Shown piece after piece: positions 42,992 to 45,064 of a stretch of 50,596 bases of DNA; the first letter of the stretch is position 1; each line of letters opens with the position of its first letter. The notes under the pieces were generated by a model that made no database searches, was not told where the DNA came from, and was given only the letters and a program-made list of their open reading frames with translations. A program made the position numbers and the translations under genes. This DNA is from Deltaproteobacteria bacterium (GTDB lineage: Bacteria > Desulfobacterota > Binatia > Binatales > Binataceae), in NCBI GenBank assembly GCA_021801125.1, contig JAJYYI010000131.1:74874-125469 (forward strand). Reading direction: 5' to 3'.

Positions 42992-44185
42992 TCAGAGGTC
43001 GTGGCGAAAGACTAGCAGCCTGGCACGGCGCGCGCGATCGTAACCGTACCATTTGGGCGGCGCGACGTCGTGCGGCGAAACCCGTCGAAAGCCTAATCGT
43101 TCGAACAAACGCGCGGCATGCGCTTCGCTCGTGCAGGCGAAAACGTAACTGAGCCGGCGCGCCCGCGCCTCTTTGAGCACCTCCTTGACCAATTCCGAAG
43201 CGACGCCTTCACGCTGAAACCGGGTGAGTGTATACAGGGCGGTGATCTCGCCGGCACGTTGGCGTTGGTACGGCTCCGTCAGGAGCGAGCAGATGCCGGC
43301 CAATTGCTCCTCGCCCAGCCGGTAGCCGACACACGACGGCAAAAGCCGCGCAACTTCCTCCCGCGATCGCTCTAATAAGGCGCCTTCTCTCTGGCCGCGC
43401 TCGATCAACGCTTGCGCCTGGTCGAATTCATCGATTGAGATGGGACACGCTGTGCCGTACGGAACCCTTGTGAAGAGCGTGCCGGTTCCGAGATAGCTGA
43501 AAAGCTCCTCGTAAACGCCGTTGGGCGTGGTGAGATTCACAGAACTCACCTCGCGATCGAGCATGCGCTTGATCGCGTTCAGCAGGCGGCGCTGCACGGC
43601 GGAATTTCGCGCCCGAAGCGTGCGGCCGATACGTCTCATCTCAAGGAAAGAGACCCGCGCGTCGCCCGCTTCGCGCAAGCCGCCGGCACGGTCGAGCAGC
43701 ACGACCTTGAAAACGCGCAGGCGACCGGCCAATGCGCCTACGAAACGCAGAAAATCAACGGGCTCGTCGCTCTCGACGCTGATTACGACCAGCGCGTTCT
43801 CACTAAGCTCCAGCCAAAGTTCGCCCAACGCCGAGTCGGGAGGGTATGGCCGGCGGGCAATCCGCCGCGTGGGAACGAAGGTATGGGACGCAAGATGCGG
43901 CTTGAGGCGAGCGGTGCGCCTTAGCACCGCAGGGATGGCGGCGCTGCCGGCGACCACGACGCAACGCGTCTGGTTGCGCTTGAGTTCGCGCAGCGTTTTG
44001 ACCAGCGCGCTGAGCTCGGAGAGTTTGCGCCCCGCAGGCGGGATCAGCGCGAACAGCAGGCTTTTCCCGTGGAACTCCTCGAGGTAAAAGCTCTTTTCAC
44101 TGAACGGCGATTTCGATTGGAGAGCTTTTGCTTCGGCCATCGCGCCGGCGGCAAGCGTCATTTCGGCAAACCGCGCCGCGCGCAA
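42992..44185 (-). CDS. ArgA-like protein: amino-acid-kinase-like domain plus GNAT acetyltransferase
   Basis: This 397-residue protein has the two-part build of N-acetylglutamate synthase. The amino-terminal part (EKSFYLEEFHGKSLLFALIP, RCVVVAGSAAIPAVLRR) resembles the amino acid kinase fold, but I cannot see the glycine-rich ATP and substrate loops of active kinases. The carboxy-terminal part is a GNAT domain: ITALYTLTRFQREGVASELV is the acetyl-CoA loop region, followed by VFACTSEAHAARLFERLGFRRV. In ArgA the kinase-like domain is the arginine sensor. The role as N-acetylglutamate synthase is likely but unproven, and no other arg gene is close. It converges with the peroxiredoxin gene and follows the acetolactate decarboxylase gene on its strand. 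Confidence 0.72.
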   Translation of the reverse strand: MRAARFAEMTLAAGAMAEAKALQSKSPFSEKSFYLEEFHGKSLLFALIPPAGRKLSELSALVKTLRELKRNQTRCVVVAGSAAIPAVLRRTARLKPHLASHTFVPTRRIARRPYPPDSALGELWLELSENALVVISVESDEPVDFLRFVGALAGRLRVFKVVLLDRAGGLREAGDARVSFLEMRRIGRTLRARNSAVQRRLLNAIKRMLDREVSSVNLTTPNGVYEELFSYLGTGTLFTRVPYGTACPISIDEFDQAQALIERGQREGALLERSREEVARLLPSCVGYRLGEEQLAGICSLLTEPYQRQRAGEITALYTLTRFQREGVASELVKEVLKEARARRLSYVFACTSEAHAARLFERLGFRRVSPHDVAPPKWYGYDRARRARLLVFRHDL

Positions 44186-44281
44186 AGGTAGCTTCTGAAA
44201 CCAGAAGCCCGAGCACCGTTAAATGACCACGGGTATGTCAAACGGCCTTTGAAAAGCCGCGATGTCGGCACTCGCACTTGA

Positions 44282-45064
44282 CTAATGATCAACCAGAACG
44301 ATTTCGATATGGCGGATCGGTTCCAGCTCGACCTTTAGCGGATTGAACTCGCAGTCCAACACATGACCGCCGTGCTTGCCGTCCGTGCTCAGGAAGTGCA
44401 AATGCAATCCTCCACCGCTCATCTCAGCCATTGCCGGCGGCGACCAGAAGCCGACCAGGGTGGCGTCAACGTCGCGCAAAGTGAACACGTGCTGCTGTTC
44501 AACCGCCTTAGCCAGCGTCGTATAGGGAGCAGTCTGCTTGGGCACGCTCCGCGCCTTGATCGAGGTAAATCTGCCCGTCAACCGCACCGCGCTATAAATT
44601 TTCTTGGAGGGCATCGAGGCCAAAATCAGCTGCTCGAGCACCTGCAAGTTCGTCGTCGTATGCACGGTTATCGTTTGAGTGGGCTTGAAGAACGTGACCA
44701 GCGCAAATGGAGTGCGGGCGGCGTCGTCAGCCAATGTCGGGGGTCCGTCGACCCTTGCCTGGTAGGCCTTGCCGTCAATGACGATCAATTCGCCATCAAG
44801 ACCGTCAAAGGTGCCCAGCCCAAAGTTGCCGTGCTTTTTCAGCGTCGAGATCTTTGGTCCGCCGTCGAATCGCCCAATCGCCATCGCCTCACGCGAGGAG
44901 ACCTGGTAGATGACGCGCGTGTCCTGAGCGTTCCCCGTTCCCGGAACAAAGCACAGGGCGACCAAGCCGAACGCACCAACCGCCAGGGCTAGCCACCAAT
45001 GGCAGCGCCGACTCACCGCCGATATTTTCCTGAACGCTAAAGGCTTCACACGAACGTTCCTCAT
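44282..45064 (-). CDS. budA: Secreted alpha-acetolactate decarboxylase, shortened C-terminus
   Basis: Acetolactate decarboxylase makes acetoin from 2-acetolactate. The zinc site HLHFLSTDGKHGGHVLD gives His221, His223 and His234, and GLDGE supplies Glu92. All four keep the spacing of the Brevibacillus enzyme as I recall it. YQVSSREAMAIGRFDGG and HGNFGLGTFDGLDGE are also family blocks. An export signal covers about residues 22-47 (WWLALAVGAFGLVALCFVPG, ending GNAQ), so the enzyme is probably periplasmic or secreted. ATG 45064 gives 260 aa; the frame opens at 45151. The protein stops about 25 residues before the usual end, so the segment with a second metal-site glutamate is missing. No acetolactate synthase gene is near. 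Confidence 0.8.
   Translation of the reverse strand: MRNVRVKPLAFRKISAVSRRCHWWLALAVGAFGLVALCFVPGTGNAQDTRVIYQVSSREAMAIGRFDGGPKISTLKKHGNFGLGTFDGLDGELIVIDGKAYQARVDGPPTLADDAARTPFALVTFFKPTQTITVHTTTNLQVLEQLILASMPSKKIYSAVRLTGRFTSIKARSVPKQTAPYTTLAKAVEQQHVFTLRDVDATLVGFWSPPAMAEMSGGGLHLHFLSTDGKHGGHVLDCEFNPLKVELEPIRHIEIVLVDH

Follow-up and report, generated by a model that had tools for sequence, protein, structure and literature searches.

A conserved, apparently exported acetolactate decarboxylase-like protein without the C-terminal glutamate segment in a Binataceae genome

Acetolactate decarboxylase (ALDC, EC 4.1.1.5) has been solved from Brevibacillus (4bt2 to 4bt7) and from Bacillus subtilis (5xne). 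The catalytic roles of three residues, E65, R145 and E253, are taken here as those assigned in the Brevibacillus crystal structure: E253 is taken to be catalytically important, and E65 and R145, the counterparts of E92 and R172 in the protein described below, presumably serve carboxylate chemistry. The Brevibacillus enzyme is also exported. A genetic link of ALDC to acetolactate synthase is common but not obligatory. A second described protein of this fold is human C11orf54 (PTD012), which, as told in PMC12435205, binds zinc on three histidines and is reported to decarboxylate 3-dehydro-L-gulonate, a 3-keto sugar acid. The same source recounts an earlier report that it hydrolyses p-nitrophenyl acetate.

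The gene considered here lies in a 50,596-nucleotide stretch of a Binataceae contig, called the window; the features of the gene are collected in Table 1. Homology assigns the predicted protein to PF03306 (E 3.9e-68; 229.5 bits, cut-off 25). No other Pfam family, PF08925 (DUF1907) included, gives a match with an E of 1 or less. The equivalog cut-off of NCBIfam TIGR01252 is also passed (200.8 versus 180.65 bits). Both matches stop short, the first at profile position 206 of 219 and the second, also at 206, of 232. Because a counterpart of E253 was sought and is missing, the protein is not classed as a proven EC 4.1.1.5 enzyme. Its N-terminus is signal-like both by hydropathy and by eye, as the first-pass annotation had stated.

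Table 1. Features of the ALDC-like gene and its surroundings, in window coordinates
Feature	Coordinates	Strand	Remarks
Exported acetolactate decarboxylase-like gene	44282..45064	-	260 aa from ATG (open reading frame of the window); start option shared with the orthologue, GTG at codon 6, gives 44282-45049
Signal peptide, residues 1-46	44927..45064	-	By eye and hydropathy; Ala-Gln-Asp region conserved with the orthologue
Decarboxylase domain, residues 52-257	44294..44911	-	PF03306 profile positions 1-206 of 219
Glu92 (E65 of Brevibacillus)	44789..44791	-	4bt2 alignment; invariant in 96/96 rows
Thr85 (T58)	44810..44812	-	4bt2 alignment; 96/96 rows
Arg172 (R145)	44549..44551	-	4bt2 alignment; 96/96 rows
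Stretch with putative zinc ligands His221, His223, His234 (H194, H196, H207)	44363..44404	-	4bt2 alignment; 96/96 rows
Loop EMSGGGL (214-220) upstream of the zinc histidines	44405..44425	-	Replaces the usual G-[VIL]-N-V-P-G-Y; identical in the orthologue
Stop codon TAG after VDH	44282..44284	-	TAA at the equivalent place in the orthologue
Intergenic stretch at the expected place of the family tail	44186..44281	-	No tail remnant found with the tail profile

The known active-site residues are intact. A gap-free alignment to Brevibacillus 4bt2 (36% identity) places residues 45-257 on chain residues 18-230 with a constant offset of 27, and gives the equivalences of Table 1. The three zinc histidines and Glu92, named at first from the letters of the sequence, fall on H194, H196, H207 and E65. 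Alignment A3 has 96 rows, among them 21 of the 23 tail-less proteins surveyed below, and T85, E92, R172, H221, H223 and H234 do not vary in any of these rows; nor do six more residues. The predicted structure of the mature protein (pLDDT 95.9) has the fold of the solved ALDCs, superposing on 4bt3 at 1.2 A over 214 residues with a Z score of 34.1.

What is missing is the C-terminus. The protein ends at the equivalent of Brevibacillus residue 233, 20 residues before E253 and 24 before the end of the 257-residue 4bt2 sequence, close to the shortfall of about 25 residues estimated earlier. The model of L043, a tail-bearing homologue (pLDDT 97.1; 0.9 A and Z 40.0 to the 4bt3 chain), aligns from residue 1 to 234 on 4bt3 21-254, and the Glu of its KVEK motif (model residue 233) falls on 253. 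Since the alignment of the window model on 4bt3 ends at chain residue 233, the lost segment is the one that supplies E253, as had been claimed, and E253 has no counterpart. The tail itself looks mobile in ordinary enzymes: three crystal entries contain chains whose modelled part ends before or within it (6j92_B at 236, 6inb at 245 and 6inc at 244), and for this reason it may serve as a mobile lid.

No remnant of the tail was found after the stop in any of the six frames, in either the window or its orthologue, using a profile made from 79 family tails; the earlier remark that the following frames hold none was right. The five main controls of this profile belong to its training set and match by construction, and 11 held-out tail-bearing genes were therefore added, 9 of which score at least 19.9 bits and the other two 4.2 and 2.2 bits. 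A tail hidden in another frame is rejected on this result. Two candidate traces were also discarded: i) an "AF" similarity past the stop, seen by eye in both species, gives no match to the tail profile in that frame; and ii) a PF03306 match running five positions past the TAG of the window gene, to profile position 211, is unsupported as a tail by the same profile. Nor do the C-termini of the tail-less homologues share, by eye, an acidic residue in place of E253, and the idea raised at the outset that another residue supplies the missing glutamate finds nothing in them.

The early end is conserved. An orthologue encoding a 74% identical protein occurs in Deltaproteobacteria bacterium isolate FK3.bin127 (G030), the sole other genome of the genus in a search of 41 family genomes. 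Both proteins end at the same VDH, followed by TAG in one and TAA in the other, and synonymous changes run right up to the stop. When the DNA is compared without gaps, identity drops from 0.76 ahead of the stop to 0.38 over the next 120 bases. The gene order is common to both genomes (GNAT, glycosyltransferase, amino-acid permease and the redoxin/GcpE side); in G030 some of the blocks are set apart by additional DNA. At the other end of the gene, the ATG of the window frame is absent from the orthologue, and the GTG at codon 6, present in both, is a possible start. Over the 213 codons of the mature part, differences at codon positions 1, 2 and 3 number 33, 24 and 107, and dN is 0.13 against a dS of 1.85, which is near saturation. 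The mature protein is under strong purifying selection. A sequencing error creating the stop, which the first-pass annotation had allowed for, is excluded short of a parallel error in two assemblies, and a pseudogene is likewise rejected on the orthologue's identical end, the selection and the lack of a remnant. Its suggestion that the protein may be inactive is made unlikely by the same three results.

The gene is an extra copy in its genome, because the same genome has a complete cytosolic decarboxylase with a full tail, on contig C29, beside a synthase-type gene. A TPP_enzyme_N match starts 80 bases after the C29 decarboxylase match, near the contig end; this family is of the acetolactate synthase type, and a match to it does not separate other thiamine enzymes. 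None of the six TPP_enzyme_N matches of the genome lies on the window's 125-kb contig, in line with the first observation that no acetolactate synthase is nearby. The second copy in G030 (L014) is tail-bearing, its match beginning at query residue 120, and by eye it is followed by a synthase-like frame. Of the 41 family genomes searched, 10 gave a decarboxylase match of any kind, and the exported tail-less form occurs in this genus alone, in both of its two genomes. The GNAT neighbour, by contrast, occurs in 39 of the 41, mostly without this gene. Given that the tail-less form is confined to the genus and the GNAT neighbour is so widespread, the ALDC-like gene was probably either gained at this site by the genus or lost from other lineages. 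No gene linked to the locus points to a substrate, since the GNAT neighbour mostly occurs without the ALDC-like gene.

Two further observations concern the surroundings and the cytosolic copies. The GNAT gene (window 42992-44185, minus strand) has a long N-terminal part without a Pfam match, and its layout, judged by eye, is presumably like that of N-acetylglutamate synthase. The cytosolic full-length decarboxylases L001 (on C29, extension at 1366-1500) and, from family relatives, L005, L006, L009, L010 and L011 have some 45 additional residues at the N-terminus, which resemble a ribbon-helix-helix DNA-binding domain: RHH_1 scores 19.4 bits in L009, 18.9 in L006 and 15.5 in L005, against a cut-off of 20.5, RHH_5 matches weakly in L010, and L001 and L011 give no RHH match. 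The extension of L006 has no match in the PDB under E 0.5. If it is a real ribbon-helix-helix domain, these proteins would be decarboxylases fused to a regulator; PutA is a comparable case of an enzyme fused to a regulator.

Tail-less homologues were surveyed in a set of 113 proteins, of which 33 come from genomes of the phylum and the family, while the other 80 are the best of at least 561 confirmed matches in the species collection. The phylum search gave a match in 61 of 395 genomes, and 30 of the matches were given loci. L004 and L042 are one gene, and L004 was removed; L002, L007, L008, L012, L013, L015 and L019 were omitted as duplicates, near copies or a fragment. The tail was called by a text pattern, Ala, Val, Ile or Thr followed by Glu 41-48 residues past the third zinc histidine. 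By this rule 90 homologues have the ordinary E253 tail and 23 do not, the latter including the window pair and the fusion protein L048; the set favours relatives of the query, and its counts therefore do not stand for population frequencies. A full alignment shifts some of the calls. L021, L096 and L048, all called tail-less by the pattern, have a Glu in its E253 column, and L029 has one three residues off that column; L024 and L034 have Val there with a Glu nearby, and L118, counted as tail-bearing, also has Val. With L021, L048, L096 and L029 removed, the strict tail-less count is 19 of 113. The trait is thus not unique to the window gene. No description of tail-less acetolactate decarboxylases was found among the papers listed in searches of the open-access literature.

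The six named active-site residues are kept in all 23 proteins without the ordinary tail. They are also kept in the 90 tail-bearing rows, except for a gap at T85 and E92 in L014, and the E253 column is Glu in 89 of these 90. The tail-less proteins end in various ways (LVLP in L078, LMEPPAK in L056, ALSESG followed by an in-frame TAG in L044 and L066), and ten or so retain part of the F..DL half of the tail without the Glu. By a crude hydropathy threshold, an export stretch is present in 21 of the 23 tail-less and 70 of the 90 tail-bearing proteins; put the other way, 21 of the 91 rows with a detected stretch and 2 of the 22 rows without one are tail-less. Two tail-less proteins are exceptions: the locus of L067 begins shortly ahead of the match, and in L069 a hydrophobic start precedes an extra domain.

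Several tail-less genes are of interest in themselves. L048 (5992-7896, from an Anaerolineae MAG) encodes an ALDC-like domain without the ordinary tail fused to Peripla_BP_6, with an export-type start. L069 (91-1188, from a Peptococcaceae MAG) has a tail-less ALDC-like domain behind a Cu_amine_oxidN1 domain. In L063 (5884-7502) and L077 (5884-7499) the tail-less gene lies, in both genomes, directly 5' of a PF04199 cyclase-family gene that by eye has a signal-like start. The related Clostridia MAG loci L044 and L066 have a common in-frame TAG at the tail (at about 6670 and 5827, respectively). By eye a few residues resembling the ordinary tail follow this TAG, and the PF03306 match runs through it to position 218 of 219, but the tail profile gives the region only -0.6 bits. 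The TAG may reflect truncation, readthrough or TAG recoding, and the two look like a separate, recent loss of the tail.

The cores of tail-less and tail-bearing proteins were compared column by column; many columns were tested and the p values are uncorrected. The strongest differences are at hydrophobic positions, 62, 188, 196 and 217, and none of them is a new acid that could replace E253. The best acid difference among the 30 top columns is at position 136 (12 of 23 versus 13 of 90), a place taken by Thr in the window protein. Position 62 is aliphatic in 86 of 90 tail-bearing and 8 of 23 tail-less proteins, and position 217 is aliphatic in 86 of 90 and 7 of 23; the window protein and its orthologue have Ala and Gly, respectively. 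With kinship ignored, the difference at 217 has a p of 3e-10 when L042, a near copy of the window gene, is left out (86/90 versus 7/22), and of 8e-10 in the strict tail-less set (5 of 18 aliphatic). With kinship taken into account, there are only four independent pairs on supported branches; on average the quick tree has 1.9 of them agreeing in direction (p 0.5) and the careful tree 2.8 (p 0.25), and no pair goes the opposite way. Tail loss thus appears to go with replacement of the hydrophobic residue at 217, an association that is suggestive and not significant after kinship, and, by counts that ignore kinship, it appears to go with such a replacement at 62 as well. The two positions may line the pocket or form the base on which the lid rests.

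Several independent losses of the tail are likely. Nine changes of tail state are counted on both the quick and the careful tree, four of them forced by supported branches, and none of 200 bootstrap trees has a single change, in a bootstrap that had not settled. A single tail-less clade is nevertheless not rejected by the AU test, with p 0.517 on the quick tree, where the constrained search was 1.5 log units better, and p 0.12 on the careful tree, where it was 40 log units worse. A long stem (0.95 and 0.86 changes per column) carries the window pair, whose place in the trees is tentative, and the loss in the window gene could be one that it has in common with other old lineages lacking the tail. 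The pair departs at otherwise conserved places, N155K, G201A, V217G and P258V among them.

Since the other known active-site residues are kept and the flap glutamate is lost, the window gene probably encodes a working enzyme with altered requirements, not a broken gene. The preferred reading, held with a little better than even confidence, is of a working exported zinc decarboxylase of the ALDC fold that has lost the C-terminal lid with E253 and acts in the envelope as an extra copy. The most likely course of the reaction would be that zinc holds the substrate oxygens and polarises the keto group of a 2-hydroxy-3-oxo acid, with release of CO2. R172 would hold the carboxylate, and E92 together with solvent would take care of protonation, the site being more open. 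Since a complete decarboxylase sits beside a synthase-type gene in the same cell, the extra copy probably acts in the envelope, on a leaked or external substrate. This substrate may be larger than acetolactate, for A62 and G217 are small residues at places where large aliphatic ones are usual. If E253 is as important as it is taken to be, its loss should impair the turnover of acetolactate. The long stem and unusual residues of the window pair, the lack of a linked substrate gene and the non-significant coupling with position 217 also speak against the preferred reading. Changed chemistry and action on another 2-hydroxy-2-acyl acid, both raised by the first-pass annotation, are possible, and they gain weight from the cytosolic decarboxylase beside the synthase-type gene and from the changes at 62 and 217. 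A bolder version is put forward tentatively: the exported tail-less proteins would form a separate group of envelope enzymes, in which the E253 lid was given up for larger 2-hydroxy-3-oxo acids, e.g. sugar-derived 3-keto acids, and small side chains at 62 and 217 would open up the pocket. The case of C11orf54 supports decarboxylation by this fold of substrates beyond acetolactate.

An altered enzyme has to be weighed against an ordinary one. The window protein might simply be an envelope acetolactate decarboxylase to which E253 and the lid are dispensable, and which makes acetoin from leaked acetolactate or acetohydroxybutyrate. The TIGR01252 cut-off is passed, the other known active-site residues are kept, the tail is unmodelled in some crystal chains of ordinary enzymes and exported full-length relatives are common, yet near-universal retention of E253 in the tail-bearing rows implies that it has a function and the loop before the zinc histidines is changed in the window pair; this account is possible, though doubtful. 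A protein of the envelope that binds a ligand with little or no catalysis is improbable. The fusions of L048 to a substrate-binding domain and of L069 to Cu_amine_oxidN1 would suit it, but in such a protein the zinc ligands, E92 and R172 would be expected to drift; all of them are retained across the 23 tail-less rows, and selection acts on the window pair. More improbable again is a move of the fold to other chemistry, such as ester or lactone hydrolysis by zinc-bound water once the lid carboxylate had gone. The esterase activity of PTD012 recounted in PMC12435205 and the position of two closely related tail-less homologues, L063 and L077, directly before a cyclase-family gene speak for it; against it, the same source now gives C11orf54 as a decarboxylase of a 2-hydroxy-3-oxo acid. 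The retained E92 and R172, whose counterparts serve carboxylate chemistry in the known enzyme, also argue against hydrolysis. An origin of the gene by decay or mis-assembly of a full-length one is scarcely credible, for although the short exported form occurs in only two of the 41 family genomes and its tail is missing, two species share the same end with different stop codons, under purifying selection and with no six-frame remnant of a tail.

The working but altered exported decarboxylase preferred here bears on annotation. The NCBI equivalog model would name the window protein acetolactate decarboxylase despite the absence of a presumed catalytic residue, and, because that residue may be absent, inferring a pathway from matches of the TIGR01252 type is unsafe. 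If the tail-less proteins are a separate group, its members would be annotated as acetolactate decarboxylase wherever current models are passed. The natural set of about 20 proteins that lack the lid glutamate but retain the other known active-site residues offers a direct test of the need for E253 in decarboxylation, stereocontrol or substrate size. It also gives human C11orf54, newly assigned as a decarboxylase, a bacterial protein group to be compared with.

Set beside known systems, the window protein is closest in structure to the ALDCs of Brevibacillus (4bt2-4bt7) and B. subtilis (5xne), with a predicted fold at Z about 34 and 1.0-1.2 A, the zinc histidines, the equivalents of E65, T58 and R145, and the PF03306 and TIGR01252 matches in common. 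It differs from them in having neither the C-terminal tail nor E253, in the change of the NVPG loop to SGGG, in Ala62 and Gly217 where aliphatic residues are usual, and in the lack of linkage to a synthase gene. With exported full-length homologues of the same phylum (such as L043/L015 and L017) it shares the signal peptide and the core domain, at 42-44% identity over the aligned part, but these keep the tail LPxxxxFxxxDLxxDxxxELxKVEK, whose Glu in L043 falls on residue 253. The other tail-less proteins (L078, L056, L069, L063, L077, L109, L113, L065, L114 and others) resemble it in the export-type N-terminus of nearly all of them and in having the six active-site residues intact with E253 absent; their C-termini are diverse, and several retain the first half of the tail. 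C11orf54/PTD012 (DUF1907, PF08925) has the same fold (1xcr, Z 15.2, 3.6 A over 209 residues), but at 11% identity it belongs to another, mainly eukaryotic, Pfam family.
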